This document shows positions 3,591 to 31,624 of a stretch of 64,000 nt of DNA, one piece after another. How positions within the stretch are numbered: the first letter of the stretch is position 1; each line of letters begins with the position of its first letter. Below the pieces are notes generated by a model. The model had not been told where the DNA came from, did no database searches, and saw only the letters and a list, made by a program, of their open reading frames with translations. The DNA lies in the NCBI RefSeq assembly GCF_016907535.1, contig NZ_JAFBCF010000001.1, positions 3,286,001 to 3,350,000 on the forward strand. The letters are read 5' to 3'. The translations under genes were made by a program, and so were the position numbers. Origin of the DNA: Microlunatus panaciterrae (GTDB lineage: Bacteria; Actinomycetota; Actinomycetes; Propionibacteriales; Propionibacteriaceae).

Positions 3591-3596
3591 TACCCC

Positions 3597-3705: not shown

Positions 3706-3741
3706 CTCGCCGTCGTGCGGGCACGGTGGAGGTACCTTAAT

Positions 3742-4763: not shown

Positions 4764-4817
4764 GGCACGAGACGCGGTTGAGCGTGAGCCTGGGAAGGGT
4801 GCGGCTGGTGTTGGACG

Positions 4818-6321: not shown

Positions 6322-6683
6322 ATGTTAATACTGCTCGCGCTCCCGGTCATTGCTGTCGTTGCGGCAAGCCATCGCTATTTCAAGCGTTGCGCACCCTCGA
6401 ACCTGATGGCCCGTCGAGTTCGCACCGCGCCGCCCGCCTTCGGCATGGCCGTAGTGCTCCTCGCGCTGGCGACCGTCCTGCTGACGTGGATGCACGTCAT
6501 CGATGAGGCGGTCACGGCCGGGCCCCTGGCTGCTTCAACCTCGTCGCAATTGTCCTTGCTTGGGACGCCATCAAGGTCGCTCTCCTGGCAGTCCACTCGG
6601 CGGGTCGTGCAACTGCTGCGGCGGTCACGCCAGTTTGGCGGTGCTCAGCGGGATCCCATTCCGCGGCGTCACCCTTCACTTAG
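6322..6683 (+). pseudogene. Frameshifted small membrane protein at the left island edge
   Basis: An ATG behind CGGAGG opens a frame encoding MLILLALPVIAVVAASHRYF and, after a basic loop, FGMAVVLLALATVLLTWMHV. Near 6520-6540 the hydrophobic reading moves to another frame, which gives NLVAIVLAWDAIKVALLAVH and ends with TAG at 6681-6683. A 1-bp loss there would restore a three-helix protein of about 120 residues. Its 3' end overlaps the end of dpdD by 15 bp, so the island junction probably lies inside or beside it and may have replaced its original C-terminus. The family is not recognised. Confidence 0.55.
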
Positions 6684-8834
6684 CTCGCGCAGAATGGCGG
6701 ACGAACCTCGCGAGTTGACCTGGATGATTGGGCGGCCCCCGCGGTGGTCCTTGATGAAGTTGGTCGCGGCATGCTTAGCCGATGCCGCAACCATGACGAA
6801 TACGTCGGCGTTTGCACTGAGGGCCGCCAGTTGCTGACTCCCGTCATGCTCAGCCGTCGTGCGTACATCAATGCCTGGGATAAGCCGCCGAAGGACCTGC
6901 GCGGCACGGGTAATCGCAGACTCGGTGAGCGAATAGAGCACGACGACCGAAGCTTCAAGATGTCGGTAGGCCGCGGCGGGGTCTGCGTCTGAAGTCTGAA
7001 CCTCGAAGTCGACGGGCAGGCTGGTTGCCAACTCCTCGGCGACCAGGCGAAGTCCTTCGATATCAGCGAGGCTGAGGCTGGAGCGCACCGGCCGCAGAAC
7101 CTCGAGCGCACAGTAGAACAATCGAGTCTTGGCATCCAATGCGCGTGCTTGGGGACTCGTCGTTGCCGCCTGCAGGACGTCGACCGTCCAGTGCGCAGTG
7201 ACGGCGGAGGTTCCCGCCCGCAGGATGTCTTCTGTCCACAGCAGCGAGGAGGCCAGAATGTCGGCCCCTGGGCCGGACGCAGACGTGTACTCCAGGAGTG
7301 CGACTGTCTGAACCCGGATGCCCGCGGTGTTCTTTTCGCTGACGGCAAAGCCCGCGAGTACTCGTTCGCAGAGTTCGGCGCCGTCGACGGCCGCGAACAG
7401 TGACGAATGCGCTGCCATGAATGCACCGCCATGGTCTCCGAGCCGAGCCAACGTCTCTTCATCCAAGGAAGCTAGGCGGTTCGCGACGGTCGCATGGTCG
7501 AGCGGCGCCCAATCGGCGCTGACGCTGAAGTCGACCGCTGCGCCTGGGACATCGTTAGCTTCCAATGCGTCAAACCAGCCGAGCCATCCGAGGTTCCGTT
7601 GCGGGTTGAGGAACCCGGCCAGCCACTCCAGGTCGGCCCGGACGACGACATCGTCTTTGCGCGACTCCTCGTGAAGCCCCGAAGCCTCGACGAACGTCGC
7701 GACTTCGGCAGCTAGTTGGGGATCCTCCAGTTCGCGAATGCATCCGAGCAGCAGGGCGGCAGTGGTCGACGACGGTGTCTCGGCAAGGCCGGCGACGACT
7801 GCGGCAGCGAACTCGCCTTCCGCGATGAGGCGGTGGAGTTCGTCTGTCGGCGTGACCGTCGCCGGATCCGACGTGTCTTGAGCCAGCGTCTCAGGAGGTT
7901 CGGCTTCTGGCGTGATCAGCAGGCGGAGGGGGTTCGCCAACGTTGGCGAGAATGACTGAGCCTCGTCGGCCAACCGATCAAGCGTTGCGGTTGCGGCGCC
8001 TCGCAACTTCGCGAGCATGAACTCGACCAGCAGCGCCGGTCGAGCCTGTGTCGCGCCTCCCGTCGCGAGCGTCCGGAGACCGGCCGGGATCCGGTTGGCA
8101 GCCTCGAGCAAGGCTGCTCCGTCACCGGAGGTGTCAGCCGACTCCAGGTAGAGTTCGTAGACCGCGTTCTGAAGCAGTCGGGTGATCCCGAGTGGGCGAC
8201 GCAGTTGGAGGACGTGCTCCAGGTCTTGGTCGGCGAAGATTGCAGCCGTGTCCCCAAGCCCCGCGTATACCCGCAAGCGGAGGAATGCGAGGTTCGACTG
8301 GTCGAGATCAGCGGAGGCCTCAAGTTCCCGGAGGCACGCGAGGGCAATCCGACGATCTCGAGCGCCGATTGCGTGGCCTAGGTCGTCGAGGACCTCGACC
8401 GTGGTTCGAGGTGCGTCGAACTCCGAGCGCGGACGCTTCCACACCATCTTGGAGAGCACGAGGAGCGTTTGACGTACTTCATCACGAGACGCCGCACTGC
8501 CGCGTGGGAGTACCTCAAACCGCAGAGGTGGTACGTCCGTTGAGGCTAGAACAATATCAAACGGATCCTGGGGGTACAGGCGCCCTCGGCTTCTTGGCAG
8601 GTCGCTGAACGTAGGGCCAATCCAGGCGTCCAGGAGCGTGAGCAGTTCCTTCCGTTCCCGCAACGTGGGCGCGAAGCCGTACCAGTAAAGGTTTCTGTTG
8701 GTCACCCTCGGCAGGAACGCGATCTGTCCACGTCTGATGGCATCTAGCCAGTTCTCGATCGATGTCTCGTGCTCGGGCGGCAGCCGTGCGGGGGTGATGT
8801 CGTTGCCCGAGCCGAAGAACTCCTCAGCCTGCAT
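6669..8834 (-). CDS. dpdD: DpdD, Dpd system protein with DUF2325-like C-terminus
   Basis: A 721-residue protein, the last gene of the dpd operon. I chose the ATG at 8834, which has GAAGG 8 nt upstream, over the GTG at 8843. Either way it overlaps the 3' end of dpdK. Most of the chain is helical and repeat-like. The last 80 residues (RLIPGIDVRTTAEHDGS, NADVFVMVAASAKHAATNFI, RGSSAILREL) look like a Rossmann-type DUF2325 domain. DpdD belongs to the presumed restriction arm of 7-deazapurine DNA systems; its biochemistry is undefined. The name rests on position after dpdK and on this C-terminal pattern. Confidence 0.8.
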   Translation of the reverse strand: MQAEEFFGSGNDITPARLPPEHETSIENWLDAIRRGQIAFLPRVTNRNLYWYGFAPTLRERKELLTLLDAWIGPTFSDLPRSRGRLYPQDPFDIVLASTDVPPLRFEVLPRGSAASRDEVRQTLLVLSKMVWKRPRSEFDAPRTTVEVLDDLGHAIGARDRRIALACLRELEASADLDQSNLAFLRLRVYAGLGDTAAIFADQDLEHVLQLRRPLGITRLLQNAVYELYLESADTSGDGAALLEAANRIPAGLRTLATGGATQARPALLVEFMLAKLRGAATATLDRLADEAQSFSPTLANPLRLLITPEAEPPETLAQDTSDPATVTPTDELHRLIAEGEFAAAVVAGLAETPSSTTAALLLGCIRELEDPQLAAEVATFVEASGLHEESRKDDVVVRADLEWLAGFLNPQRNLGWLGWFDALEANDVPGAAVDFSVSADWAPLDHATVANRLASLDEETLARLGDHGGAFMAAHSSLFAAVDGAELCERVLAGFAVSEKNTAGIRVQTVALLEYTSASGPGADILASSLLWTEDILRAGTSAVTAHWTVDVLQAATTSPQARALDAKTRLFYCALEVLRPVRSSLSLADIEGLRLVAEELATSLPVDFEVQTSDADPAAAYRHLEASVVVLYSLTESAITRAAQVLRRLIPGIDVRTTAEHDGSQQLAALSANADVFVMVAASAKHAATNFIKDHRGGRPIIQVNSRGSSAILRELSEG

Positions 8835-9348
8835 GACCTGCACCTTCGTAGAGAGCGTTGTACGCGATCCGAACTTCCGCGATCGCGTGAGGGTCGCGCG
8901 TCAACGTGACGCCCTCTGCGTTGACCGCCTGTCCGAAGTACGTGAAGTTCATGGATCCCTGAAGGTGGAATCGGTCACCCAAGATGCCCTTGTCGTGGAG
9001 GTTGGGATGGATTCTCACTGCCGGTTTGGCGCCCAGTCCGCCGACATTCTCGAGTCGCTGACGGGCAACAACGTTGCTCTCAACATTGCGAGTCAGGACG
9101 CGAACATCGCTGCCACGACGAGCCAGTTCGATCAAGACCTCCGTCAGCCGGATCCTTCGCGACGGGAGGCCTGGCAAGACGGTCTTGAACTGGCCCGCTG
9201 TGTTGTCGATGACCTCGATGTCGGAGATCCAAGGCGACAGAACCCACAGTTGCCCGGAGGGAACCAGCAGTTCCGTGATGAGCAGGTTCTGCATCAGGTC
9301 GTTTAGAACGCGGGTCTGTCCGCGGCCCGAGGTCGTGATCCGTCTCAT
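8824..9348 (-). CDS. dpdK: DpdK, phospholipase D-like protein
   Basis: A 174-residue protein with one complete HKD motif, HxKxxxxD at His118-Lys120-Asp125 (LHDKGILGD), followed by GSMNFT (residues 131-136), as in PLD-superfamily nucleases. A single motif implies a dimeric active site. The N-terminal part (LWVLSPWISDIEVID) matches the usual strand-helix lead-in. It starts in a 4-bp overlap with the dpdJ stop and overlaps dpdD. In Dpd loci the PLD protein is the best candidate for the DNA-cutting subunit. That is inference from the superfamily, not shown for this gene. Confidence 0.88.
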   Translation of the reverse strand: MRRITTSGRGQTRVLNDLMQNLLITELLVPSGQLWVLSPWISDIEVIDNTAGQFKTVLPGLPSRRIRLTEVLIELARRGSDVRVLTRNVESNVVARQRLENVGGLGAKPAVRIHPNLHDKGILGDRFHLQGSMNFTYFGQAVNAEGVTLTRDPHAIAEVRIAYNALYEGAGHAG

Positions 9349-12300
9349 GCCGACACCTCAGCGAGTTCGAGTGTGACGAGCACGTCGCCATTCGCCCGAT
9401 GGTCGATCTCCACGACTCGGGGATACACGTTGAGGTATTCGGTCACTACTGGTTCGACACACACACCCACGAGCAGGTCTGCGAGATCCCGGGCCTGCTC
9501 TGGGGTGGCCAGAACCTGTGCGGAGCCACGCTGTGCCAGGGTCTGCCGGACGCGATTTCGGAAGTCGCCGGTCAGCGGGAGCGGAGGATCGCCCGCTGAC
9601 GCGAGCGATCGCAGAACCTCGGGTGCCGCAGGCAAGTTCTCGGCAAAGGGATTCCACACGTTCAATTCTTCGGCACGGAGTTGCCAGCCGCGGGGCCAGA
9701 GCAGGCTTTGTACCGCATCCATGCGCTGGCGCTCGCTACCTCCGCCTGTGAGGACCAAACCAGAATCGAGGTCGGAGCGCGTACGCATCAGGTACGCCCA
9801 GGTGCGAGGCGGGATCTCGACACCGAGCCGCCGCTCTTCAGACTTCCACTCGGTTGTTACAGTCGCCAACGTCGCGTCAGTCGATGGTGTTGAACCCGGC
9901 CGAAGAACGCGGCTTGCTAGTGAGGAAACGACGGACTGTTCGGCGCCGTAGATGCCTGATTGGCGAAGGCCATCCCTGATCCGCCCGAGCGCCTGGACGC
10001 GCGTTACCTGATCAGGCGCAGATCGAAAGTCGTTGACGAGGCCAGACCAGGTGGCGTCCGTTGCCATGAGGTCGATTACCCGCTGAAGGTGGCTGTCAAC
10101 GAGTTCGTACGTACTGGGCTGCGTAGCTCGGAGGATGAGCCGAAGGAGTCGACGCGGATCGGGGCGGACGCGCGCTGCGAGGGCTTCGACGAATCCGCCG
10201 CCGCCGATCGACGACTCGGACAACCAAATCTCGCCGGCCCGCGGCCTGCCGTCGGCGTCATATCCGGGCTCGATGTCAACGATGACGCTTTCAGGATCGT
10301 GTTCCGGGCAGATCTGTCTCGCCGCAGCAAGCGTCGCGTGTCCAAGCGTCGAAAGCGTCCGCTCCCGGAGCCAGTGGCTGAAAGTTGCGGGCTCGGGAGA
10401 CCAGTATTGCGGCGCCAAGGCGTCGAGTCGGGCCGCGATCGCGGGGTCCTTGAGTGCTTCTTTGAGCCGAGCGCCCATTCGTGACAGCACCGCGGACTCT
10501 GACTCGATCACGCTGGAGGCTCTGAACATGGCGTCGAGGGTTTCGTCGAGTTTGTCGTCAAACGAGTCGTGGATCGTTGCGTAAGCCTCCGCGAGCGTGC
10601 TCTGGTCACGTACTGACGTGGTGAGCAGCATGGCCTCTAGGCACTGGTGCAGCCAGTCGATCCGGAAGCTATTCAGGGAGCCCAGTAACTCATCGTCATT
10701 GAGCAGGACGTGCTTGAACCAGGCACTGCGCAGCCCGGGCAGGAGGTCGGCTGGGATGGCGATGTCCTCCGGCAGTTCCACTCGGATGCGCAATCCGTCC
10801 ACGTCAAAAGTGGAGCCCATCGCTGCCGGTTGGCCATGAAGCGTGAACCGTGATCGTACTCGCTGCTCAGTGCCGTCCTCGAGGTTCAGGGTGGCATCAG
10901 CGCTCACGGCCGCACGATGGACATTGACGTGAGCGTTCTGAGCATGCACGAAGAAGCGAGCGTCCCTGATCAGGCGCCCGACAGGGTCGGCCGTTGGCAC
11001 GCGGATGATCAGGCCGGTCCCCGTTTCGATGAACTGCGACCGCCATTGCATCGTTGCGTTGGACGAGTCCTTCACTGCCTTCGGCGGTAGCTCGACTACG
11101 ACCTGATCGGGGCGAACCACCGTTGTGGTCGTCGGTGTGCCGTCGATGTCGACGGTGCAAGGTTCCTCGACTCCGAAGACCGGCAGGATTGTGGTGAGCT
11201 CAAGCACAGGTTCAGCAACGCCGATCGGAACGGGAATCCAGTGGCGGTGCTCGAGATTCCGAGTTGCGAATCGGCGTGAAACGCGACCAGGTGCGTACTC
11301 GCGGAGCATCTGGCCGAGACCCATCGCCTGGAGCTCTCGGTCGGTATCCCGGTCCGACTGGGGCGGAATGCTCACGAAGGTCTCGGGCAAAGCTAGTTCG
11401 CTGAAGAGGTTCATCGGGAAGAAGTCGGGCAGGGGATTGCCACCCATGAGATCGCGAAACTCGTGGACTCCGCTGGCCTCTGCCACGCTCCAGTTGTGGA
11501 GGAGTCGGCGACGCAACGTAGGGATCGCCTGAAGCAACAGTGGCCTCGGCGGATGCCACAAGACCTCGTTGGCCTCTGAGTCGGACAGGCCGAGTGCGTT
11601 CTGCACCCACGTGCGCAGGCTTCGCTGACGGTCCGGATCGCGGAGGGCATCGTTCAAGATCTCAACGGCCTTGAGTTGAGTCTCGCGGCCCGGCTTGGCG
11701 AAACTGTCGGCCGGCTTCTGGCCAAGGGCGGTCCAACCGATTGTCGTTCTCGGGACGCCCTGTTGCCGAAGCTGACTTGTTAGCCAATCGATCATCGCGA
11801 TGGTGGCTTGCATGCGTAGTACGGCTCGGTTGCGGATCGGGAGCACGAGATCAGGCAGCACGGGATCAAACAGGGTGTCCCACGACTCGTACGTCGCGCG
11901 GTCGCGGCCGTAGTCGGACAGCACGACTGCTGTGTAGGGCCGCATGGTCCGCTTGCGTCCCGCTCGCCCCTTCCGCTGAAGGAAGGCGGCTACCCCGCGA
12001 GGTGCTTTGTGCTGAATGACTACGCCGACGTCGGGGTCGTCGAAGCCAACTTCGAGTGAGGCTGTCGCGACGATCAACTGGCTGTCGGCAGTAACGCCTG
12101 AGTCTTGGGACGTGGTTCGACTAACGCGCAAGCCCTCGCCGATAGTCGCGAACTTGTGACCGATAGCGGTCGACAGATCCCAGAGTTGACCCGCGCGGCG
12201 CTGTTGCGTGACATCGCCCCCGTTGGGGTTGGCGCGTACTGACGCGAGAGGAGCTTTGAAGGACTTGGGCTTCCCGAACGCGTACCGCTGCCCCTCCGCG

Positions 12301-13841
12301 TCAAGGAGGTACGAGAAGAGACGGTTGGTGACATCGAGGTCGTCCGTGAAGACGAAGGCCTTCGTTCCGTAAATACCGGATGAGATCCGACTCGCCGGCT
12401 CATCCTGCGCCCGCGGGAGCAGCATGGATGTCTGGATGGTGGTGGATAGTACAGACGCGCCGCTGGTGGGATCGCTGCGGAGGGCGAGCAAGTATTCCGC
12501 GCCCTCGTACTCCAACTCGTCGGCATCGGGCGTGATGCTGGTGACGAGTTCGTCGTCGACCCCGGTCAGGTCTGCCATGTGGCGGATCGGGCTCGACAAC
12601 GTCGCAGAAAGACCGACGAACGTAATGGGAGTTTGAATGCTGTGGTGCCACCGGCGGAGCACCATCGCAGCCTGTGCGCCGGTGGTTCCGTCGTAGGTGT
12701 GAATCTCATCGAGGAGCATCATCCGAGGCTTCTTGCCGACCGGCACGTCGATGCCCAAAGGTCGCGTGAGGTTCAGATCGGAGAGACCGCGATTGAGCAT
12801 CTCGGTAGTCACGAAGAGCAGGTCGGGAGGGGACTTCTGCATTGATTGCCGGGTAAGGACGACCTGGTCCTGTCCGAACGAGCGCCGGCAGGTAGCGCAA
12901 ACGAGGCGTTCGACCCCGGCATCGATGTCTTCGTTCGGCCAGACGAGTTCGCCTCCACATTGGGCGAAGCCATCACCGGGACAGCGCATCTGCGGGGAAG
13001 CCATGCCTTGGGGGCGCTTTCCCCAACCGCGATGGGGAAGCCTTACGTTCTTCGCACTCGTGGGCGTGCTGGCGTAGAGGGCGCCGATCGTCATCGATCG
13101 TCCAGTGGACAGCTTCCACAGATCGTCGAGTCGGCAAGCATGGGCGAACGCCGTGTCCAGTTGATCCTTCAGCAGTTCGGTCCGGGGATAGACGGCTAGG
13201 GCGCGGGTCCATGCGGAAGGGTCCGTGATGCCGGCCAGGTAGCTGAACGCAGGGAGGTAGAACGCGTTTGTCTTTCCGCTTCCGGTTCCGGCACCGACCA
13301 CGGTGGCTGTTGTGGACTGACTCTGCAACGCGGTCAAGATGTGCCTCGTAGCGCGGACCTGGAACCCTCCCAAGAGGTCATGCTTGCCATCGCGTTGGGT
13401 TAGGACCCCAAGCACCCCTCGATACGCGTCGATGGGGCCAACGACCCCTTCGAGAGCCGTGGTCCAGGGGTGATCGCGCTTTGGGTAGAAGCGGGGCCGG
13501 CGTGCGTAGCGGAAGTCGGAGATCAGATTGGTCCCCGATTGCCAGGTCTGGCCGAGGAAGGTCTGTCGCAGTCGCGCCACCAAGCGGATGGTCTCGCCGT
13601 TGCGGGTACGCCAACGGCCTGGCGACGCGCTTGAGTCGTGCACGAGTAGCGCGCGCGCAGTCATTGCCTCAATGACGTCGTCTGCACTCAGATCCCACTC
13701 GTGGCTGGAAGTGAGTTCGTCGCCGATCACCTGACGAAGTTCATCCGTGCTGAAGCCCCCGTCGACGACGCCCCAGCACAGCAGTGGATCCTCGAGGGAC
13801 TCGAGTCGGTCAAGCATCCTGGTCAGCAGCGCCGGGTTCAT
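9345..13841 (-). CDS. dpdJ: DpdJ, large DEAD/DEAH-type helicase
   Basis: A 1498-residue superfamily 2 helicase. Walker A is GAGTGSGKT (residues 183-191) and motif II is DEIH (378-381). Motif III is SAT within FVGLSATLS, and motif VI is QRKGRAGRKR near residue 630. A four-cysteine zinc site (C287, C295, C315, C318) is inserted between motifs I and II. The C-terminal 700 residues have no motif I recognise. The overall plan is that of the large DpdJ/DrmA-like helicases of DNA-modification defence loci. The ATG overlaps the dpdI stop by 4 bp. Presumed role: ATP-driven translocation on unmodified DNA in the restriction complex. Confidence 0.88.
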   Translation of the reverse strand: MNPALLTRMLDRLESLEDPLLCWGVVDGGFSTDELRQVIGDELTSSHEWDLSADDVIEAMTARALLVHDSSASPGRWRTRNGETIRLVARLRQTFLGQTWQSGTNLISDFRYARRPRFYPKRDHPWTTALEGVVGPIDAYRGVLGVLTQRDGKHDLLGGFQVRATRHILTALQSQSTTATVVGAGTGSGKTNAFYLPAFSYLAGITDPSAWTRALAVYPRTELLKDQLDTAFAHACRLDDLWKLSTGRSMTIGALYASTPTSAKNVRLPHRGWGKRPQGMASPQMRCPGDGFAQCGGELVWPNEDIDAGVERLVCATCRRSFGQDQVVLTRQSMQKSPPDLLFVTTEMLNRGLSDLNLTRPLGIDVPVGKKPRMMLLDEIHTYDGTTGAQAAMVLRRWHHSIQTPITFVGLSATLSSPIRHMADLTGVDDELVTSITPDADELEYEGAEYLLALRSDPTSGASVLSTTIQTSMLLPRAQDEPASRISSGIYGTKAFVFTDDLDVTNRLFSYLLDAEGQRYAFGKPKSFKAPLASVRANPNGGDVTQQRRAGQLWDLSTAIGHKFATIGEGLRVSRTTSQDSGVTADSQLIVATASLEVGFDDPDVGVVIQHKAPRGVAAFLQRKGRAGRKRTMRPYTAVVLSDYGRDRATYESWDTLFDPVLPDLVLPIRNRAVLRMQATIAMIDWLTSQLRQQGVPRTTIGWTALGQKPADSFAKPGRETQLKAVEILNDALRDPDRQRSLRTWVQNALGLSDSEANEVLWHPPRPLLLQAIPTLRRRLLHNWSVAEASGVHEFRDLMGGNPLPDFFPMNLFSELALPETFVSIPPQSDRDTDRELQAMGLGQMLREYAPGRVSRRFATRNLEHRHWIPVPIGVAEPVLELTTILPVFGVEEPCTVDIDGTPTTTTVVRPDQVVVELPPKAVKDSSNATMQWRSQFIETGTGLIIRVPTADPVGRLIRDARFFVHAQNAHVNVHRAAVSADATLNLEDGTEQRVRSRFTLHGQPAAMGSTFDVDGLRIRVELPEDIAIPADLLPGLRSAWFKHVLLNDDELLGSLNSFRIDWLHQCLEAMLLTTSVRDQSTLAEAYATIHDSFDDKLDETLDAMFRASSVIESESAVLSRMGARLKEALKDPAIAARLDALAPQYWSPEPATFSHWLRERTLSTLGHATLAAARQICPEHDPESVIVDIEPGYDADGRPRAGEIWLSESSIGGGGFVEALAARVRPDPRRLLRLILRATQPSTYELVDSHLQRVIDLMATDATWSGLVNDFRSAPDQVTRVQALGRIRDGLRQSGIYGAEQSVVSSLASRVLRPGSTPSTDATLATVTTEWKSEERRLGVEIPPRTWAYLMRTRSDLDSGLVLTGGGSERQRMDAVQSLLWPRGWQLRAEELNVWNPFAENLPAAPEVLRSLASAGDPPLPLTGDFRNRVRQTLAQRGSAQVLATPEQARDLADLLVGVCVEPVVTEYLNVYPRVVEIDHRANGDVLVTLELAEVSA

Positions 13842-14548
13842 CGCAGGTGCACCTTGAATCGATCGACGATGCCAAGAGCACGGAGCTTCTCGAGACGATC
13901 AGCCGTGAACCAGGTCAGTGGCACGCCGGACGGCTCCTGAGACCCCACGATGCCCTCGGCGATATCGGCGTCAACCACCTCTCCGATTTGTTCGCCGCAA
14001 CGGTGGATCGACTCGATGGCGTCTCGATACTTCTGAACCGCACCGCGGTCCGGGATCAGCCTGCTGGTGACTGTGAGCAACCGGGCGCGCGCCGTCTCCA
14101 GAGCATCGCGAATCTCCTCGACGTCAACACCGCCCTGCGCCAGTGCGTCGATGAGATCGCCATTGACCGCTGGCGGGGGCTGACTCACATACGTCTGCCA
14201 CGTGCCTGCGACGAGAGCGCGTAGTTCCTTGGCGTACTTCTCGGCTGACCGGACGCGTTCCTTGGCGAGGTCGAGATTCTGATCCATTCCGAGCGACGGA
14301 ACCTCAGTCGCCAGCACACGGAGACTCTCGGCTACCTGGGATGCATCCTGTTCGCGGCCCGCCGGCAGTTCAACATCGAGTTGCTCAACCTCACTCAGCG
14401 CGACGTTGAGCGCGGGCAACTCCGCCAAAGGCGGTGCGAGGCGTGCACTGAGATCTGCGAGTTGTCCTGTCCGGACCTTGACCTGGTGTTCGTCGTTGGC
14501 GACGTCGGCGTGGGCACGCAGATCCTGGATGGTGCTGCGCAGGGTCAT
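13838..14548 (-). CDS. dpdI: DpdI, coiled-coil Dpd system protein
   Basis: A 236-residue mostly helical protein with heptad-like stretches (SEVEQLDVELPAGREQD, AKERVRSAEKYAKELRALV), suggesting a coiled-coil subunit. No catalytic motif is visible. It is wedged between dpdH and dpdJ with 4-bp overlaps on both sides, which implies coupled translation and probable complex membership. The name is given by position between the ATPase and the large helicase. Confidence 0.75.
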   Translation of the reverse strand: MTLRSTIQDLRAHADVANDEHQVKVRTGQLADLSARLAPPLAELPALNVALSEVEQLDVELPAGREQDASQVAESLRVLATEVPSLGMDQNLDLAKERVRSAEKYAKELRALVAGTWQTYVSQPPPAVNGDLIDALAQGGVDVEEIRDALETARARLLTVTSRLIPDRGAVQKYRDAIESIHRCGEQIGEVVDADIAEGIVGSQEPSGVPLTWFTADRLEKLRALGIVDRFKVHLR

Positions 14549-17500: not shown

Positions 17501-17601
17501 AGGAAGACGCCGTCAGACGTGCTTTCCGCCTCGACAGGGATGATCGCTGAAGCCTCATGTGCATTCCAGCAGGCCGCAGGGAGGGTGCCACGCCAACTCA
17601 C
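14545..17601 (-). CDS. dpdH: DpdH, STAND-like P-loop ATPase
   Basis: A 1018-residue ATPase. Walker A is GKSGTGKS (residues 80-87), followed by HLVRWLRAHL. Walker B is LLVLIEDF (308-315). A CEQC...C cluster (C415, C418, C424) could bind metal. A Pro/Thr-rich linker (PSTPTQPSPTPTPTPQP, near residue 570) separates the ATPase half from a helical C-terminal half. The start overlaps the dpdG stop. Size, domain order and neighbours match DpdH of 7-deazapurine DNA systems. It likely powers or licenses the restriction complex; direct function is unknown. Confidence 0.83.
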   Translation of the reverse strand: MSWRGTLPAACWNAHEASAIIPVEAESTSDGVFLATHSTIPITQRDQVDNARGGAVVDERSLLRAVQEQPADQPIIPILGKSGTGKSHLVRWLRAHLETKESTRLIFVPKHRMSLRGILELILEHASGERADELRAKVATAVDAAADEKTAQLKLRNALAVNIETRGNRTDGSPEEIELRAYLASPGGLPALFGDDVFRSRLLDQNGPIARLVREKLSGKGDEDKDDAFGFTADDLNLSVDDVNRAGQAAREVAGALTSERSFRELAARMINEQLGPSVSEVFGVGGDDLKQILTDVRVEMDKQGLELLVLIEDFSIFQGIQGGLIDAITLISTEAQRLCPMRVVMAVTTGYFINQMPETVYTRTYRVFDLDLPDGRGASFQPAGFAGRYLNAVRVGATELDAAHAGGDEVPNACEQCPVNAECHSSFGQVDGYGLFPFNTAALDRAIKSQSTDGGFVARNVLTRVLRPVLHRDQAEIDNGRFPSYGFANDFRSGASDRLANIEDQFKLRSPGDEELSERRVRLVRFWGSGAGAVNLAPTIHDAFEVTPINGLDDPKPPIVDPRPSTPTQPSPTPTPTPQPVAAGPALVKAVDGWLATGNILQGEINDLRNIVFQAVRQRLAFDDGYGGDSLWGNDKALAPGFEAKMVEFSQAKIAGAVLPMDRSNPEDMRALRALAWANHKNNWAEVPDGERLQRLTETAIDRWATRVGGTILPPERPNDDTELARLVEVLLNIARALGIADAFKSDTTSRIRALFAPIPARTDLESRAGLRSLHGFLVDGAGSGNSVTRVGRGQLQQRLLRHASYSQGSGKPLALDLHKVAKVVRSGAAGAPWPESTPDLVKSSVSTIEARLASIDSLHAEASNLVPDLSDLGGELADVAAELLVLVNERANAGALPGGINPADLQAAAKAVRPGDQRKVEATFAELSRWDQLTIEEKFQVLNGDWDEPARRVDTWLRMARQTVRLLEHSLGNGSPSDVQREYAEARDQLIADLTAMADSISTPATEDSSGPEELA

Positions 17602-21115: not shown

Positions 21116-21116
21116 G

Positions 21117-24100: not shown

Positions 24101-24545
24101 TGCGCCCGGAGCGCCAACGGTCATCCTTGTCCTGCCAGAAGACGCGAAGTTCGGGGAACAGGGTCAGTCGGGTGAGGCTTGCGCGCGATACCGCCTCGCG
24201 GTAGCGGTCTGATGCGGCTGGGCCGGGCGCGTCGAAGTACTCGAGCACCAGGCGGTCGCCCTCTCGCGCCACGAGTTTGCCGGGGCCGAAGCGGTTATCC
24301 GAGGACACCAGCAGGTCGCCGCGACTCAGGGACCTTGTTCGCCGTCCGATCATCGGAGAGGACGGTGGGGCAGCCTTCTTGCGTGGCTGGCGCGGCTGCG
24401 GCGCCTTGCCCTCGGCGTCGCGCGATCCGCGGCAGCGCGGAAACTGCGGGCAGCCCCAGAAGGCTTGCCCGGCGTTCCGCCCACGGGAGGCGAACTGCAT
24501 CACCATCGCCGAACCGCACAGTGGGCACACCACCCCACCCGTCAT
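21117..24545 (-). CDS. dpdE: DpdE, SNF2-type helicase with N-terminal topoisomerase zinc ribbon
   Basis: A 1142-residue SNF2-family ATPase. I chose the ATG at 24545 behind GGGGGCAGGA; a TTG 45 bp upstream is the alternative. Residues 7-38 form a topoisomerase I-type zinc ribbon: C7-x2-C10, C32, C38, with AFWGCPQFPRC. After a basic linker and a Tudor/SH3-like region come Walker A DEVGLGKT (253-260) and DEAH (329-332). Next are MLSATP and motif VI EQRVGRCDRW (near 695-704). The C-terminal 400 residues lack recognised motifs. About 98 bp separate it from dpdB2, the largest gap in the operon, so a second promoter is possible. Presumed part of the restriction machinery. Confidence 0.9.
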   Translation of the reverse strand: MTGGVVCPLCGSAMVMQFASRGRNAGQAFWGCPQFPRCRGSRDAEGKAPQPRQPRKKAAPPSSPMIGRRTRSLSRGDLLVSSDNRFGPGKLVAREGDRLVLEYFDAPGPAASDRYREAVSRASLTRLTLFPELRVFWQDKDDRWRSGRIIEANEHNDIYVRGHEWEGFVPEGQLHVRWNKPLVDPVGFGEAGMLESPILAELRLPFLRSILQQRSAAHGMRSVLSSCIELHAHQVETAWRVLQDPVQRYLLADEVGLGKTIEAGIIIRQMLLDSPSLRVQLILPPFLLEQWKRELTQKFRVQDFTGAHVRFSRDDEPSDWDAADLVVVDEAHNLARMSVSTDPDLAFRFDRLREVALASPRLLMLSATPALHNEDPFLAMLKLLDPAVYADTTAEQLRSRLEARAGLGRVFLGLQPHLPGVLLKGRLKEVEASFPDDAEVGELVARARESVATQDKDETASLIQALRTHVAEVYRVHRRMLRTRRTTALEGTYRVSGRRAPEPVLLESTPRDEVADALDRWREQALASAEGNPAAMTMAGRAFAEAVAVALDPSALQEWAAGHAAAPVAAEEVAALKRIEQDMAYADRRATVSRPFADALSELMTSNERAVVFCPTVDLATELAEELKDLFGAKSVFCHVTTQRSEENERAVRSFEAVRKAAVLVADSSAEEGRNLQFANVLVHLGLPGSANRLEQRVGRCDRWSPEGSGEWRSYVVSGHADHIYAGAWERILSDGFGIFDSSVASLQQAVDDATDEAWRILLQMGLGGVASAVTRVREMLAAEIERVREQDALDSLETSVDERSVYARIADVESDASAFAKVSDDLLAANSAAGNLRFERKGNPAAGLGGYEALGRLPGKQAQIPLISASRLVRDFLPLKGHVGTYVREVALAREDVHLYRYGDPFIDAVSDFLWHDDRGRAFGMWRWLPEWPRDDTPLYRFDYAVEADPLDGPSSEYPRRELMTVSAGMDQRALTRRADGIFPPIIVSVWMTSGAQELTSRSHLDALSAPYAKPGPIRAGGDYSLNRVRINEAYELIPAGNWGESWRSAEGAAQRLVRSREDVRAAVERATAIANRDSATRLSQLRLRAMRTTGSELVRLEEELYREEAIASAMTAAVTAPSLRLDSTGIVVLSGRALTS

Positions 24546-24643
24546 TCCTGCCCCCGCTTCGCCCTCACCCCACAGAGCGTAGTAAAGCAATAAAGACGTC
24601 CGACAGTTGGGGGTAGTTGGCGCAATCCGGCGGCTGGAGAGTG

Positions 24644-25747: not shown

Positions 25748-25757
25748 GGACGAAATC

Positions 25758-27008
25758 CTAGGTGTTGGCGTCTGCGAAGTTGGTAACCGCTGCGCGGCTG
25801 TGGACAAGTTGCCCCATCTGGTGCCTGAGGACCGAAAGGTTGTGGAATCCACGTCGCTTGTTTCGCTCAGTACCGCGGAAGATGGCGACCTCCACCCCGT
25901 GCTCCCTGCAGATAGAGCAGGGACAGTGACGCCAGGGCTCGGCTTCCAGAGTCTCCGCGTACGCGTCGAGGTACGACTTCTTGCTCTGGCACACGACTTC
26001 GTATGCCCCCAGCGCGTCCAGGCAGTCTTGGCGCCCTGCCGGCGTGCCGTCGAACGCACGAAGTGCCTTGAGCGCCTCACGCTCGGCAGTGAGGGCATCC
26101 TTCTGGCTGACGGAGCCTGCCAGGATCGCCCGCTTCAGAGTGGGGTTGCCGTCGACCTGGGGCACGCGGATTGCCACGTACGCGCGCTCGTTCGTGTGGT
26201 AGTTTTTCCGATCGTCCATGAACGCCTGCCTGAAGGCTGACGTGCTGTCGAAACTGGTGACGCCCAGTGCGGAGAACCGGTCCATGGCGTCGATACGGGT
26301 GATCCCGAGCAGGTGCAGTTCGGTTCCGGGCGCGAGGATGGTCGAGATCTGAGTCAGGCAGGCCAGGATCTGGTCGGTCTTCAGAGGCACCATGCCGCCC
26401 AGCGCAATGCGCTCATATCCCATCTCTTGGAGGGCGTTGACGCTGTCGGCGTAGCTCGTTGGGCTCCATCCCTGGGCGGCGCCGACTGGTTGAACACGGG
26501 TGCGTCGATCATTCGTGAGCGAGATGAAGTCCTCGGCGAGGCGAAGCGTGAGTTTGCGCCGTTCGACCCACTCGGGATCCGCGGTCTTCGCAGTTGCCTC
26601 GGGTTCGTAACCGAAGATTACGTGGTCTGTGCTCACTCCGGCGTCGAAATCGCACTCCTCGTAGAAGTCGAGCGTCTCGGCGACCGTCACGGGTGGGACG
26701 GGCTCATCGATGTAGTTGAAGGCGCCGTTGTCGCCCAACGTTTCCACGCCACGAGGCAACCGGAAGAAGCGATGGACGCCCATCCGGTACAGGCGAGCCC
26801 GCTGTGCACCGGAGTACTTGCCAGCGCCCTTGATCGATCCGTCCACGATCGACTTGCTGACGAGGATTCCGTGGTACGGAGCCTCGGCTAGGACCTCGTG
26901 CGCGTACCGGTCGTCCCGCTGACGAACGCGGTGGGCCGGGTACTCGTCCCGGAGGAAGTCGTAGGCCGGACTGACGAGGTCCTGGCTGTCGGGGAAGTAG
27001 AACTTCAC
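25758..27008 (-). CDS. dpdA: DpdA, TGT-like enzyme inserting preQ0 into DNA
   Basis: A 416-residue homologue of tRNA-guanine transglycosylase. The TGT catalytic aspartates correspond to D93 (GDNGAFNY) and D128 (VSTDHV). IALGGMVPLKTDQ forms the base-binding loop. A zinc site is made by C362, C364, C367 (CPCSIC) and H389 (RGFHN). Unlike housekeeping TGT it is diverged, lacks the tRNA-specific C-terminal layout, and sits amid dpd genes, which marks it as DpdA. It should exchange guanine for preQ0 in double-stranded DNA at a short motif. The ATG overlaps the dpdB1 stop by 4 bp. Confidence 0.94.
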   Translation of the reverse strand: MKFYFPDSQDLVSPAYDFLRDEYPAHRVRQRDDRYAHEVLAEAPYHGILVSKSIVDGSIKGAGKYSGAQRARLYRMGVHRFFRLPRGVETLGDNGAFNYIDEPVPPVTVAETLDFYEECDFDAGVSTDHVIFGYEPEATAKTADPEWVERRKLTLRLAEDFISLTNDRRTRVQPVGAAQGWSPTSYADSVNALQEMGYERIALGGMVPLKTDQILACLTQISTILAPGTELHLLGITRIDAMDRFSALGVTSFDSTSAFRQAFMDDRKNYHTNERAYVAIRVPQVDGNPTLKRAILAGSVSQKDALTAEREALKALRAFDGTPAGRQDCLDALGAYEVVCQSKKSYLDAYAETLEAEPWRHCPCSICREHGVEVAIFRGTERNKRRGFHNLSVLRHQMGQLVHSRAAVTNFADANT

Positions 27009-28141
27009 TTGCGGCCCGTTCGCTCAGCAAGGTACGTCCGAACCAGGTAGTTGGACAACGCGCTGATGTGTCGAGGGGTGTTCTGCAGGTCGTTCCACGC
27101 AACGCCCAGGTCTTCCCACGTGCCGTCCGTCCAGCGGCATTTCGGAGCGATGAGACGCAGTTCTGCTGCGGCGAGTTCACGAGCACGAGGGTCGTCGTCT
27201 CGTACGTGGGTCATGACTCGATCCATGAGTCGGCCCATGGCTCGGATTCCGACTCCGTGCATGAGGCGGCTCGCAGTTGGGTTCGCACCCCAAGCCTCGG
27301 GGAAGGTGTCGTGTACGGCGCCCCAATAGGCGACGAGGACACGTCGGATGCCCTCGGTGTCTGTGGTCCCACTCGCGATATTCCGGTAGGGGAAGAGGAC
27401 CCCAGACGGGGATTCGACAGACTCTCGGATCGCCTCTACGAGACTGTTGTCAGTGACGACAGTGACCTTCTTGTCGTCTGCCGGAGTGGATGCCCGTCGG
27501 ATGAGTCCATGGAACGGCGAATCTGAGTCGTGATTCAGCATGTCAACCAGGGCGGAGGGCAACTGTCTCGTGGCCATCCGTGCAGAGGGAACGCTGGCGA
27601 TCTCTGGGAGAAGTTCTGTGACGAGCCCAGTCGGTAGTGGTTGGACGGTGTTGACCCGCAAGAACTGCTCTCGTTGAAGTTCGAGCGAGGCCGCGACGAA
27701 GCCTGCCACCGGCACCGGGAGCCGGCGGTTCTTGGTGCGAGATAGTGCAAGGCTTCGCTGTTGGCCATCGACGATCCAAGCCGGCCGCGGGCCATCGCCG
27801 TCGGGAGCTATCGGGATCTCCAGCGTTCCGGCGACAGCCAGCCCATCTGTCGTGGTCGGCCCACGACTCGACTTGAACTTGACCTCAGGCGGCAACGCGA
27901 GGATCAGCCCGTTGGGAAAGATTGGATCCTCCGAGTCCAGGTACTCCTGGATCTGCTTCACGTGCTTCTGCTTCTCTGGGCGCTGGTATCCGATGAGCTT
28001 GCCTGCCTCATCCCGACCGATCCGCGCAACGTCCGCGACCAGGTCGACTTCCTCAGCTGCCAACGTGAAGAGATAGAGCGGAGTGTCCTCGCTCTGAAGA
28101 ACCTTGAGTGCCCGGCGTACCAGCCACTTTGGATCCGTCAT
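27005..28141 (-). CDS. dpdB: DpdB, DGQHR-domain partner of DpdA
   Basis: A 378-residue DndB/DpdB-family protein. The family signature appears as DGQQR (residues 125-129) after PRPAWIV, with LIGYQRPE at 49-56. Other conserved parts are EQFLRVNTVQPLPTGLV and LMHGVGIRAMGRLMD. The family is ParB/Srx-like with ATPase activity in some members. In Dpd systems it is needed with DpdA for preQ0 incorporation. The gene is coupled by 4-bp overlaps to dpdC upstream and dpdA downstream. A paralogue follows dpdA. Confidence 0.9.
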   Translation of the reverse strand: MTDPKWLVRRALKVLQSEDTPLYLFTLAAEEVDLVADVARIGRDEAGKLIGYQRPEKQKHVKQIQEYLDSEDPIFPNGLILALPPEVKFKSSRGPTTTDGLAVAGTLEIPIAPDGDGPRPAWIVDGQQRSLALSRTKNRRLPVPVAGFVAASLELQREQFLRVNTVQPLPTGLVTELLPEIASVPSARMATRQLPSALVDMLNHDSDSPFHGLIRRASTPADDKKVTVVTDNSLVEAIRESVESPSGVLFPYRNIASGTTDTEGIRRVLVAYWGAVHDTFPEAWGANPTASRLMHGVGIRAMGRLMDRVMTHVRDDDPRARELAAAELRLIAPKCRWTDGTWEDLGVAWNDLQNTPRHISALSNYLVRTYLAERTGRK

Positions 28142-29007
28142 CGAGTCACCGCCTGTTGAAAGAGAGTCGAGAATCGTCGTTGCTCACATGCCATGCCCGC
28201 CTCGCGAAGAACCTTGAGCGCGCCCGTTTTGGAGACGGTGGGTTGATGCACGCGGAGCTCTCGGACGAACGCAACCACCGCAGAGTCAGACATGGGCTTG
28301 CGATCAAAGACCTCGCGATGCCGCTTCTCGTGCGACCAGGTTCGCCACTTGTCCCGCGCCGCACTCGTGAATGGATCCTTGCCGTCGGACAAACTCAGCC
28401 ACTGCGTTGCGGCGCGAACATTGAGACTGGTGACGGTGCCCCCGAGCGCACGCCGCAATGATCGGTCCGAGGGGACGCGCAGGCTGTCGCGGATCTCCTT
28501 TGACCCGCCGAACACCAGTACGTCACTGGGGGCGGTGTCCTCGAGCAACTGCTGGCCGACAACGCGTGAATAGGCCTCAGACAAGACCCAGATCGCTCGT
28601 CCTGCAAGAGGGACGTCGGCGTGGGGGAGTGCGCCCCACCAAGTTTGAGACTCCGAAAGAGATGCGCCGACCGAGTCGGCGTGACCGGTACTGAAAGTCG
28701 CGGCGTAGGCGGGAGCCGAAGTGGAGACGTGCTGGAGCCCGAGTCCTGCCGAAACCACGAACATCGTTGGCTCGTACCTGAGGTTCGTGGCCTTGAGTGC
28801 TAGGGCACGAACCTGACTCCACGTCTCGCCGCCGTACAGGTCGATCAGGGGGCGGCGCACCGTCGCTCGCGCGAGGCCCTCCTTCCACACCCGGGCGCGA
28901 GCGCTCACCTGTCCAGTGGGAAGATTGCGGACCATCAACTCGTCATCAGGGGTCGCCGACTTCCTGTCAGTACAGGTGACGATGATCGTCAGTTTGTGTC
29001 GCGACAT
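28138..29007 (-). CDS. dpdC: Probable DpdC, converting DNA preQ0 to the amide form
   Basis: A 289-residue protein, first gene of the minus-strand operon. The N-terminal half has [17 protein letters not shown] and [12 protein letters not shown], resembling the YaaA/DUF6884-type fold (strand-loop CTDRK; SAGLGL). The C-terminal 80 residues (SEKRH-like basic segment, [15 protein letters not shown]) look like a small helical DNA-binding appendix. In characterised systems DpdC turns DNA-bound preQ0 into 7-amido-7-deazaguanine. Position next to dpdB-dpdA supports this call. Sequence evidence alone is moderate, so the reaction is inferred. Confidence 0.68.
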
Positions 29008-29114
29008 GGCCTCACATGCTCCGAAACTACGCGTTCGTTCCAGCTACTCTATCGTGTAGTTTCGACAGTACGGGGCAAGAGGCCCCCATCGACCGAGTGA
29101 AGAGGGTGTTGGAC
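29008..29114. promoter_or_regulatory. Divergent dpdC/queC promoter region with inverted repeat
   Basis: CGAAACTAC (29022-29030) and GTAGTTTCG (29056-29064) form a perfect 9-bp inverted repeat, extendable to CGAAACTACrCG with one mismatch. It lies centred in the 107-bp gap between the two divergent operons. AT-richer DNA between the arms (TACTCTAT) may hold -10 elements for both strands. The arrangement suits an operator that controls modification and precursor synthesis together. No regulator gene is visible inside the island. Confidence 0.5.
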
Positions 29115-29813
29115 ATGACGCGGAAGGCCATCGTCCTGCTGAGCGGGGGCCTGGACTCGACGACAGTGCTCGCGATCGCGAAGGACCAGGGTTTCGAGCC
29201 GTACGCCCTGAGCTTCCGCTATGGACAGCGGCACGAGGTCGAACTTGCTGCGGCGCAGCGCGTCGCCGAGGCGGCTGGGGTCGCGCGACACGTGGTGTGC
29301 GGCATCGACCTTCGTGTGTTCGGTGGATCTGCGTTGACCGCGGATGTCGAGGTGCCGAAGCACGACTCGGCGGACGAGATTGGCGACGACGAGATCCCCA
29401 TCACCTATGTGCCAGCTCGCAACACGGTGTTCCTCTCATTCGCGCTGGCCTACGCCGAAGTGGTGGGAGCAGCCGACATCTTCATCGGTGTTAACGCGCT
29501 CGACTATTCCGGCTACCCCGACTGCCGTCCCGAGTACATCGCGGCATACGAGCAGATGGCCAACCTCGCGACTCGGGCCGGCGTTGAGGGCACCCAACTC
29601 AAGATCCACACGCCGCTGATCAACCTCACCAAGGCGGAGACGGTTGAGCTCGGAACGAAGCTTGGTGTCGACTACTCGCTCACCCTGTCCTGCTACGACC
29701 CGGACGACGACGGCCGTTCTTGTGGTCATTGCGACTCATGCCTCCTGCGCCTCCGCGGCTTTGCGGACGCTGGTCTTTCAGACCCGGTCAGCTATCAGGA
29801 GGCGATTGCGTGA
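29115..29813 (+). CDS. queC: QueC, 7-cyano-7-deazaguanine (preQ0) synthase
   Basis: A 232-residue enzyme starting [17 protein letters not shown]. It has the PP-loop SGGLDS (residues 9-14), the internal [14 protein letters not shown] segment, and a zinc site [17 protein letters not shown] near the C-terminus. It converts 7-carboxy-7-deazaguanine to preQ0 with ATP and ammonia. The open frame extends upstream, but homology begins at this ATG; a GTG at 29106 is an alternative. It leads the divergent precursor operon, and its stop overlaps the queE GTG. In this setting the preQ0 is for DNA rather than only tRNA. Confidence 0.96.
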
Positions 29814-30445
29814 CCTACAAGGTCAAGGAGATCTTCTACACGCTCCAGGGCGAGGGCACGCACGCTGGCCGCCCCGCTGTGTTCTGCCGCTTCAGCTCCT
29901 GCAACCTGTGGACCGGCCGGGAGGCTGACCGCGAACGAGCGATCTGCAAGTTCTGTGACACCGACTTCGTCGGAACTGATGGCGAGGGTGGCGGCAAGTT
30001 CGCCGACGCGCAGACGTTGGCGGAGGCTGTGGCTGCGAAGTGGCCGGTGAACGGTGGCGGACGCCCCATGGTCGTCTGCACCGGTGGCGAGCCTCTTCTG
30101 CAGTTGGACCCGGCGGCCATCGCGGCTTTCCACGAGCGGGGCTTCTACGTTGCCGTCGAGACGAACGGAACGGTCGCACCGCCTCCGGACATCGACTGGC
30201 TCTGTGTCAGCCCCAAGATTGGCTCCGATCTAATCGTCCACGAAGGACAGGAACTCAAGTTCGTTGTCCCGCAGGGCGGAGTTGACCCAACGACGTTCGA
30301 ACACCTGGACTTTGAGAGCTTCCGCGTGCAGCCGATGGACGGCCCGGACGCGGCCGCGAACACCGAACTGGCCGTGAAGTTCTGTCTTGATCATCCGCTC
30401 TGGCAACTGAGTCTGCAGACGCACAAACACCTAGGAATTCCGTGA
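29810..30445 (+). CDS. queE: QueE, 7-carboxy-7-deazaguanine synthase
   Basis: A 211-residue radical SAM enzyme. The GTG start has AGGAGG upstream (29797-29802) and overlaps the queC stop as GTGA. The iron-sulfur motif is the queE-type insertion form: [19 protein letters not shown], that is Cys-x14-Cys-x2-Cys. It also has [16 protein letters not shown] at the N-terminus and CTGGEPLLQ. It converts 6-carboxytetrahydropterin to 7-carboxy-7-deazaguanine. It is the second gene of the preQ0 operon, overlapping queD by 4 bp. Confidence 0.96.
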
Positions 30446-30810
30446 CCCACACCGCCGAGATCTACCGGGAGTTCACCTTTGAGGCAGCTCACCGGCTGCC
30501 AAACGTCCCTGAGGGTCACAAGTGCGCCAGACTTCACGGACACTCTTATCGAGTCGAGGTCCACGTGGCTGGGCCAGTGGGGGAGAGCACTGGTTGGGTT
30601 CAGGACTTCGGCGACCTGAAGGTCGCCTTCAAGCCCCTTGAGGACCAACTCGACCACCGCTACCTCAACGACGTTGTGGGTCTCGAGAACCCGACCAGCG
30701 AGGTACTGGCGAAGTGGATCTGGGATCGGTTGAGCGTGGACCTTTCAAACCTCACAGAGGTGCGGGTTCGTGAAACCTGCACCTCTGGCTGCATCTACCG
30801 CGGGGAGTAG
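30442..30810 (+). CDS. queD: QueD, 6-carboxytetrahydropterin synthase
   Basis: A 122-residue member of the 6-pyruvoyl-tetrahydropterin synthase family. It has the zinc histidines of FEAAHRLP and [10 protein letters not shown], the cysteine of [10 protein letters not shown], and the late catalytic Asp-His ([12 protein letters not shown]). It converts dihydroneopterin triphosphate to 6-carboxytetrahydropterin. Its ATG overlaps the queE stop by 4 bp (GTGA), and folE2 follows after 4 nt. Confidence 0.96.
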
Positions 30811-30814
30811 TCAG

Positions 30815-31624
30815 GTGGCGCTGCCGGACATTCAGGATCAGGTGGACGAGCGTGAAATCGAGCTCGATCGCGTCGGCATCGCTGGGGTGCAGTACCCCGT
30901 TCGCTTCAACGACGGCGCGAGCATGCACAGTGGCATTGCGACGTTCGACGTCACGGTGACGCTGCCGGCCGATCGTCGCGGCACCCACATGAGTCGGATG
31001 GTCGAGATCATCCATGACGAACTCCAGGACCTCGAGCCTGAACGGCTTCCTCAGGCCCTCAAGGTGGCTGCGGACCGCCTCGACGTCGACAAGGTCCAGG
31101 TCGTCGTGGCGACGCCGATGGCGTTCCGGGTTCAAGCTCCGGCGTCGGAGAAGGAAGCGTGGCAGGTCTGTGACGTCGAGTTGGACGCGAAGTTAATCGC
31201 TGGGCAGGCCGAGCTCGCCGTCACCGTCGGCACGGACGTCACCAGCCTGTGTCCCTGCAGTAAGGCGATTAGCGACTACGGTGCCCACAATCAGCGCAGC
31301 AGGGTGCGTCTCACGACTGTGGGGCGGGATGAGGACATCTATCCCCTCGACGTCGCCGCTGCCTTCGCCATGATTCGCTCAGTCGGTTCAAGCCCCGTGT
31401 TCCCACTGATCAAGCGTCCAGACGAGCGCGTTGTCACTATGGCGGCCCACGACCGTCCAGCCTTCGTCGAAGATATGGCGCGCGATCTGTCACAGGCTTG
31501 CCGTGAACGCGGGATAGCCCACTCGGTGAGCGTACGAAACTTCGAGAGCATCCACAGCCACGACGCGGTGGCTGCCGTCTCGTGGTCTCCGGGTAGCCCA
31601 GCGGGCAGGCTCGGCACTATATGA
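30815..31624 (+). CDS. folE2: FolE2, type IB GTP cyclohydrolase
   Basis: A 269-residue GTP cyclohydrolase of the FolE2 (COG1469) family, not FolE1. The diagnostic segment is SLCPCSKAISDYGAHNQRS, with the metal-binding cysteine, and KRPDERVVTMAAHD follows later. The GTG start lies just after the queD stop. It converts GTP to dihydroneopterin triphosphate, the first step to preQ0. FolE2 can use metals other than zinc. Together with queD, queE and queC this makes the island self-sufficient for preQ0. Confidence 0.95.
   Translation: MALPDIQDQVDEREIELDRVGIAGVQYPVRFNDGASMHSGIATFDVTVTLPADRRGTHMSRMVEIIHDELQDLEPERLPQALKVAADRLDVDKVQVVVATPMAFRVQAPASEKEAWQVCDVELDAKLIAGQAELAVTVGTDVTSLCPCSKAISDYGAHNQRSRVRLTTVGRDEDIYPLDVAAAFAMIRSVGSSPVFPLIKRPDERVVTMAAHDRPAFVEDMARDLSQACRERGIAHSVSVRNFESIHSHDAVAAVSWSPGSPAGRLGTI

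Follow-up and report, generated by a model that had tools for sequence, protein, structure and literature searches.

Gene content and layout of the Dpd island

We analyzed a 64,000-nucleotide stretch of DNA from Microlunatus panaciterrae (the window; positions 3286001-3350000 of a genome held in a single contig of 4,068,014 bases), which carries a Dpd (7-deazapurine in DNA) island at window positions 6669-31624. Genes in the order dpdC-B1-A-B2-E-F-G-H-I-J-K-D run on the minus strand from 29007 down to 6669, and queC-queE-queD-folE2 run on the plus strand from 29115 to 31624; adjacent island genes overlap or abut in the list of open reading frames (ORFs). The genes and coordinates of the initial annotation agreed with this list and its translations, and its central claim, that the Dpd island is complete, follows this gene order and brings its own preQ0 pathway, was supported by family matches and order. 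It had also named, as a result that would support it, the placement of all twelve proteins in their expected families by hidden Markov model searches. Using NCBIfam with curated cut-offs, PADLOC and Pfam, we found that 11 of the 12 did match and that the DpdI candidate matched none; PADLOC assigned these 11, DpdC among them, and NCBIfam placed 10 proteins above cut-off, covering nine Dpd families.

The DNA-guanine transglycosylase gene dpdA (25758..27008; NF041059, 605 bits, cut-off 200) lies between the upstream paralogue dpdB1 (27005..28141; NF041060, 409 bits, cut-off 300) and the downstream paralogue dpdB2 (24644..about 25747; 508 bits with the same model), whose start is our reading, the profile match starting at ORF residue 124. 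dpdC (28138..29007) matched the PADLOC DpdC model with an E value of 1.2e-100. All seven members of the restriction set DpdD, E, F, G, H, J and K exceeded their NCBIfam cut-offs: the SNF2-like helicase gene dpdE (21117..24590; NF041062, 1146 bits, cut-off 500, match from residue 94), the RecQ-like helicase gene dpdF (18518..21115; NF041063, 647 bits, cut-off 550), dpdG (17598..18521; NF041064, 151 bits, cut-off 80), the ATPase gene dpdH (14545..17601; NF041065, 678 bits, cut-off 450; P-loop GKSGTGKS at residue 80), the helicase gene dpdJ (9345..13841; NF041067, 1796 bits, cut-off 800), the gene for phospholipase D (PLD)-like dpdK (8824..9348; NF041068, 184 bits, cut-off 100; PLDc_2, 33.4 bits, cut-off 27) and dpdD (6669..8843; NF041061, 607 bits, cut-off 300). 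DpdK has a single motif, HDKGILGD at residue 118, which we take to be the HxK(x)4D motif.

The dpdE ORF holds an additional N-terminal four-cysteine, zinc-ribbon-like stretch (residues 20-56, window 24423-24533) ahead of the DpdE model match, scoring 25.3 bits with Zn_ribbon_Top1, under the cut-off of 32. The pattern is common to three relatives (L016, L022 and L024). It is absent from an E. coli DpdE, from two fragments (L023 and L060) and from 14 other DpdE-type ORFs of nearly full length. The gene probably starts at the ATG at 24545, by our reading. Between dpdH and dpdJ, the minus-strand ORF at 13838..14548 has same-slot relatives in Cellulomonas sp. KH9 (L038, 72% identical) and Krasilnikoviella flava (L083, 60%); alignment identity to the same-slot proteins of Agrobacterium vitis and Enterobacter cloacae was only 18-20%. 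We call it a dpdI candidate, a name given solely by its position and these two relatives.

All four preQ0 enzymes scored above NCBIfam cut-offs: queC (29115..29813; TIGR00364, 213 bits, cut-off 150; ORF from 29016, start set by the profile), queE (29810..30445; TIGR04508, 333 bits, cut-off 240; ORF from 29720, start likewise by profile), queD (30442..30810; TIGR03367, 114 bits, cut-off 89) and folE2 (30770..31624; NF010200, 217.2 bits, narrowly over the cut-off of 215). Because the QueC model found no second match in the 4.07-Mb genome beyond that of the island, this genome probably has no source of preQ0 other than the island pathway, as judged from the QueC search. One folE lies elsewhere in the genome, outside the island.

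The initial annotation had named a grouping of DpdA with tRNA-guanine transglycosylases (TGTs) as a result that would speak against it. The DpdA model gave the protein 605 bits and tgt_general gave it 19.5 bits, under the cut-off of 47.6, a separation drawn from profile scores, and a separate tRNA TGT (397 bits) is encoded elsewhere in the genome. D93, D254, the CxCxxC motif at 362 and H389 were invariant in six of six aligned DpdAs; by analogy with the TGT family, we take these residues to be catalytic and zinc-binding. The sole PDB match of DpdA at E <= 0.001 was 7ui4 (396 bits), a solved protein labelled DNA-guanine transglycosylase that originates from Salmonella Montevideo according to the available text of PMC12137116.

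The failure of the DpdI candidate to resemble any family model might be taken to mean that the island is silent, with intact genes and no working modification. We consider this very improbable, given that the reading frames stay open along almost the full profile length for the 11 Dpd-type proteins that have a model and for the four preQ0 enzymes, that the key residues of DpdA are retained and that adjacent genes overlap or abut.

Relatives of the island and two DpdB lineages

A scan of genome contigs from 84,980 species with a six-row DpdA alignment yielded 338 relatives, of which the best 80 were kept and their loci typed by BLASTP with the window proteins. These best 80 of 338 are 52-87% identical to the window DpdA, and all 80 come from Actinomycetota. 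The counts of genes in these loci are lower bounds because contig ends cut some of them: at least 78 have dpdC, at least 77 have all of queC, queD and queE, and at least 67 have folE2. The initial annotation had valued an intact actinobacterial island with FolE2; such islands proved common, and their value as rarities is correspondingly lower. The island is thus ordinary in kind, one more complete copy of a known Dpd system. Consistent with this, a survey by GATOR-GC lists 333 unique dpd windows in Actinomycetota, within a group characterized by complete operons, and reports chemical proof of Dpd modification in Kineococcus radiotolerans (PMC11888242, text available in part).

The nearest relative, Nocardioides caeni DSM 23134 (L016), has the folE2-to-dpdH order of the window, with 84% DNA identity over 15.8 kb; its stretch ends before dpdJ, dpdK and dpdD. 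Between the two, DpdB1 is 95%, DpdB2 94%, DpdH 92% and DpdA 87% identical. DpdC (28138-29007) diverges more than its neighbors, at 71% against the 94-95% of the two DpdBs. The alphaproteobacterial plasmid clusters of Agrobacterium vitis, Methylobacterium and Caulobacter resemble the window in having dpdB on both sides of dpdA (B-A-B) together with queE-queD-queC. They differ from it in that the preQ0 genes lie on the same strand, downstream of dpdB2, that no folE2 match was found in the stretches examined and that the restriction proteins are only 25-37% identical to those of the window. The E. coli locus, which runs hypothetical-dpdA-dpdB-dpdE-F-G-H beside tRNA-Leu and an integrase, is unlike the window in having one DpdB and no preQ0 genes (one locus examined, an 18-kb stretch); of 5426 E. 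coli genomes, 159 have this dpdA-dpdB type. In three further loci (L013, L014 and L137; Paenibacillus and cyanobacterial plasmids), we observed a DpdA-like ORF of ~690-720 codons and no adjacent DpdB.

The initial annotation correctly recognized a DGQHR-family DpdB but missed that there are two, encoded on either side of dpdA and only 36% identical to each other. The same-strand B-A-B arrangement was found in 77 of the 80 actinobacterial loci, the exceptions being L065 and L095, which have the downstream DpdB only, and L071, which has neither. Both DpdBs were also present in seven of eight alphaproteobacterial plasmid loci (L010, L012, L015 and L133-L136), the eighth, L132 from Acetobacter, having neither; the E. 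coli and Enterobacter cloacae loci have one DpdB each, downstream, and the three cyanobacterial and Paenibacillus loci none. In a DpdB tree of 180 rows from a quick search, all 86 upstream copies, from actinobacteria and alphaproteobacteria, formed one clade (Shimodaira-Hasegawa-like approximate likelihood ratio test (SH-aLRT) 100). The 86 downstream and three single copies fell outside this clade and did not form one clean group, and the position of the E. coli type, which has a long branch, was unsure. At the positions that differ between the clades, the three single DpdBs agree with DpdB2 at 7 listed positions and with DpdB1 at 2.

One could suppose that the second DpdB is redundant and has no role of its own, since both paralogues retain VDGQQR, have in common 47 positions that are at least 95% conserved in each clade and hence possibly do the same job. 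This is unlikely in our judgment, because the upstream copies form one clade (86 of 86 rows, actinobacteria and alphaproteobacteria, SH-aLRT 100) and both copies are kept in 77 of 80 actinobacterial loci. From the clade, the conserved motif and positions, and the retention of both copies, the duplication of DpdB is evidently ancient, and constraint acts on both copies. These results raise the question of why two DpdBs are kept in 77 of 80 actinobacterial and seven of eight alphaproteobacterial plasmid loci, and one in the E. coli type. In the available text of PMC11888242, dpdB is given, without explanation, as the gene with the most additional copies (801). No description of two DpdB lineages was found in the available parts of PMC11888242, PMC12839542, PMC12707154, PMC6884629 and PMC12137116, and one may have been published earlier.

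Fold models of the two proteins (DpdB2, predicted local distance difference test (pLDDT) 83 and predicted template modeling score (pTM) 0.59; DpdB1, pLDDT 81 and pTM 0.52) gave no Foldseek match in the PDB at E <= 0.001. The best hits were ParB N-domains for DpdB1 (E 0.04 and 0.07) and an unrelated protein for DpdB2 (E 0.25), and the DpdB2 sequence had no PDB match up to E 1. The modeled likeness of DpdB1 to ParB is weak and no evidence by itself; it agrees with the wording "ParB-like" in the available text of PMC12839542.

Two side observations concern this family. Six loci (L010, L020, L021, L055, L062 and L066) encode, close to the Dpd cluster but on the strand opposite to it, more distant DGQHR-type proteins that score 18-122 bits with a DpdB model built in this analysis. 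The locus L095, from an Acidimicrobiales bin, has DpdC, a co-directional restriction set and just one DpdB, located downstream, and is possibly a single-DpdB actinobacterial type.

Probable exchange of synthesis and restriction cassettes

For the 33 pairs among the 80 loci whose DpdAs are at least 85% identical, we compared two gene sets: a synthesis cassette running from folE2 to dpdB2 and a restriction cassette running from dpdE to dpdD. In 15 of the 33 pairs, the main block of DNA homology ended no more than 200 bp from the dpdB2 stop codon (13 of them within 31 bp); it extended past 6.9 kb in 14 and stopped 837-894 bp beyond dpdB2 in 4. Restriction proteins were 23-65% identical in the 12 of the 15 stop-at-dpdB2 pairs in which both loci showed such proteins, 81-99% identical in the 14 pairs of long homology and 63-79% identical in the 4 intermediate pairs. 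Thus, the Actinomadura loci L075 and L077 share DpdA at 98% and DpdJ at 34%, the Terrabacter loci L023 and L024 share DpdA at 97%, DpdF at 32% and DpdH at 35%, and the Agromyces loci L025 and L031 share DpdA at 99% and DpdJ at 52%. All eight restriction proteins tested from such loci (L023, L025, L029, L030, L075 and L077) passed NCBIfam Dpd cut-offs, so that the swapped sets are other Dpd restriction sets and not other systems.

The same pattern might arise if restriction genes simply evolved faster than synthesis genes and no cassette had been exchanged. Intermediate pairs such as L048/L069 (DpdA 81%; DpdD, DpdJ and DpdK 57-62%) fit that explanation, as do the 4 of 33 pairs that lose homology 837-894 bp past dpdB2 and not at its stop. 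However, equally close DpdAs split into two classes, with DpdJ at 34% in L075/L077 and at 97% in L058/L061 (DpdA 98%), and the reverse case also occurs: the window and Cellulomonas KH9 (L038) share DpdA at only 65% and yet DpdJ at 84%, DpdK at 90%, DpdD at 75% and DpdH at 72%. Likewise, the window and the Terrabacter locus L024 share DpdH at 92% and DpdA at 72%. A third point against faster evolution is the persistence of a dpdE relic in L023, and we regard this explanation as highly implausible.

This relic lies immediately 3' of dpdB2 in L023: 161 bp are 68% identical to dpdE of L024 and encode 52 residues, 65% identical to DpdE residues 97-148 of that locus (E 6e-20, two-sequence comparison). 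It is followed by an ISL3-type transposase fragment (PF01610, 30 bits, cut-off 23) and then by an unlike dpdF-G-H, and by this alignment L023 retains the relic of a replaced dpdE. In L041, the sequence after dpdB2 contains fragments of another dpdE as well as part of the C-terminus of DpdD (27-36 residues, 59-75%). The relic scan covered 2.6 kb after dpdB2 in 79 loci, and its output omitted hits to dpdD, dpdK and dpdJ in convergent loci and long hits to dpdE, dpdF and dpdH in co-directional loci, so that further relics may be hidden. The scan also returned a DpdF-like stretch of 222 residues in L065.

Correlations of pair identities agreed with the exchange of cassettes. Values were high within each half (J-K 0.82, J-D 0.95 and E-H 0.82 for restriction; A-B2 0.81 for synthesis) and low between DpdA and DpdJ (0.27), DpdK (0.27), DpdE (0.21), DpdF (0.06) or DpdH (0.06). 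The idea that the restriction type is tied to one synthesis gene was rejected: DpdJ correlated weakly with each of DpdA, DpdB1, DpdB2, DpdC and QueC, and because these values all lay at 0.11-0.27, no single synthesis partner of the restriction set stands out.

Taken together, we consider it very probable that the window holds a Dpd modification-restriction island and that islands of this type consist of two cassettes, one for synthesis and one for restriction, which are exchanged separately. On the sequence evidence, the marking and attacking halves are often exchanged separately between bacteria. Several points weigh against this reading. The 80 loci come from a single DpdA-based scan with at most 10 kb on each side of dpdA, few or none of them show both cassettes whole, and the 33 pairs share loci, so that their counts are not independent. 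The D-A correlation of 0.52 indicates that the cassettes are not fully independent, and the low F-H (0.55) and E-F (0.44) values indicate that the restriction set is not uniform. No swap separates the window from its nearest relative L016, the two being 84% identical in DNA over 15.8 kb. As to the families, DpdC has no NCBIfam or Pfam match, the former gap counting against the reading while the PADLOC DpdC model matches, and the DpdI candidate has no NCBIfam or PADLOC match, with a best Pfam score of 14.3 bits against a cut-off of 29.2. No description of cassette exchange was found in those parts of the same five sources (PMC11888242, PMC12839542, PMC12707154, PMC6884629 and PMC12137116) that were available, and earlier publication is possible.

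The synthesis half itself showed a subdivision. Over the 2211 pairs formed by 67 loci (counting the window) that have all eight genes, identities correlated at 0.67-0.87 within folE2, queE, queC, dpdC and dpdB1 and at 0.84 between dpdA and dpdB2, and at 0.36-0.53 between these two blocks; queD tracked neither block well (0.21-0.39). The split was much weaker in the larger (minus) orientation class of the preQ0 operon (A-B1 0.66 versus A-B2 0.78) and stayed in the smaller class (C-B1 0.85, A-B2 0.81 and B2-C 0.42). Orientation of the preQ0 operon requires one change on the tree of DpdC plus DpdB1 (79 rows) and four on that of DpdA plus DpdB2 (77 rows). Forcing the 22 plus-orientation rows of the latter together was rejected (approximately unbiased test, p-AU 2.2e-6; 190 log-likelihood units), this group having been defined by gene order after the DpdB tree had been viewed. 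Orientation of the restriction set changes 9 and 10 times on the two trees, respectively, counted over 65 loci with a downstream set plus the window, a few of these rows missing from the trees and 15 loci with no set or an upstream set excluded.

Genomic setting and proposed function

DpdA was found in 1 of 198 genomes of the host's family, the host's own; for DpdB, a phylum-wide sample of 396 genomes gave matches over cut-off in 2, one of them the host's. Because this distribution is sparse, it fits horizontal transfer. The guanine-plus-cytosine (GC) content of the island, 0.634, is lower than that of the flanks on the left (1-6668, 0.671) and on the right (33013-64000, 0.704); the dip is weak evidence of transfer because another stretch of the genome and three of relatives lie at 0.66-0.685. 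To locate the insertion site, we used two flanking genes to search 20 genomes of the genus (own included) and compared stretches from 4 relatives. DNA homology to the relatives ends at the glnA 3' end (window 33017-33019) in three of four where covered, and the GC-poor side terminates at the same gene end (window 33013-33019). No clean empty site was found among the 4 relatives' stretches because the sequence beyond glnA differs among them. There were no convincing flanking repeats at the island and no tRNA genes in the window.

On the other side, the TerC gene and a second stretch (window 3556-4646 and 5735-6033) are 85% and 76% identical, respectively, to a site near 167 kb in the same genome and thus form a duplicated pair adjoining the island. 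The second stretch overlaps an ORF at 5641-6003 with weak matches to models bearing a winged helix, the winged helix being our reading. Farther out, window 1515-2315 encodes an Imm-5-like immunity protein domain (PF21805, 126 bits).

Gene content, family membership, gene order, the single QueC of the genome and the B-A-B arrangement were seen directly; for the chemistry and the restriction we rely on published work on relatives, in which a chain from GTP to preQ0 and on through insertion by DpdA/DpdB and formation of 7-amido-7-deazaguanine (ADG) by DpdC to restriction is described (PMC12839542 and PMC11888242, both available in part). By analogy, FolE2, QueD, QueE and QueC would produce preQ0 from GTP, and DpdA with DpdB would exchange guanine for preQ0 in host DNA. 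DpdC would then hydrolyze preQ0 in DNA to ADG, and the DpdE-K/DpdD set would attack DNA lacking the mark.

Since restriction sets are exchanged, the data suggest that the restriction cassette reads a mark or site common to different synthesis cassettes and is not tuned to one DpdA. A wider reading, which we offer tentatively and hold as a whole to be doubtful, would make the cassettes separately exchangeable, with restriction reading either the 7-deazaguanine mark as such or some site common to all Dpd systems. Any restriction cassette would then be compatible with every synthesis cassette, in contrast to most restriction-modification pairs. In the same wider reading, folE2-queE/C-dpdC-dpdB1 and dpdA-dpdB2 would be two further blocks, and these blocks might suggest that DpdB2 serves DpdA in base exchange and DpdB1 serves DpdC or a later step.

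According to the available text of a 2025 review, restriction activity linked to ADG was not further explored (PMC12707154). The exchange of cassettes bears on how Dpd restriction recognizes its target, and the natural swaps of restriction sets onto near-identical synthesis sets offer ready-made pairs for probing recognition by the restriction proteins.

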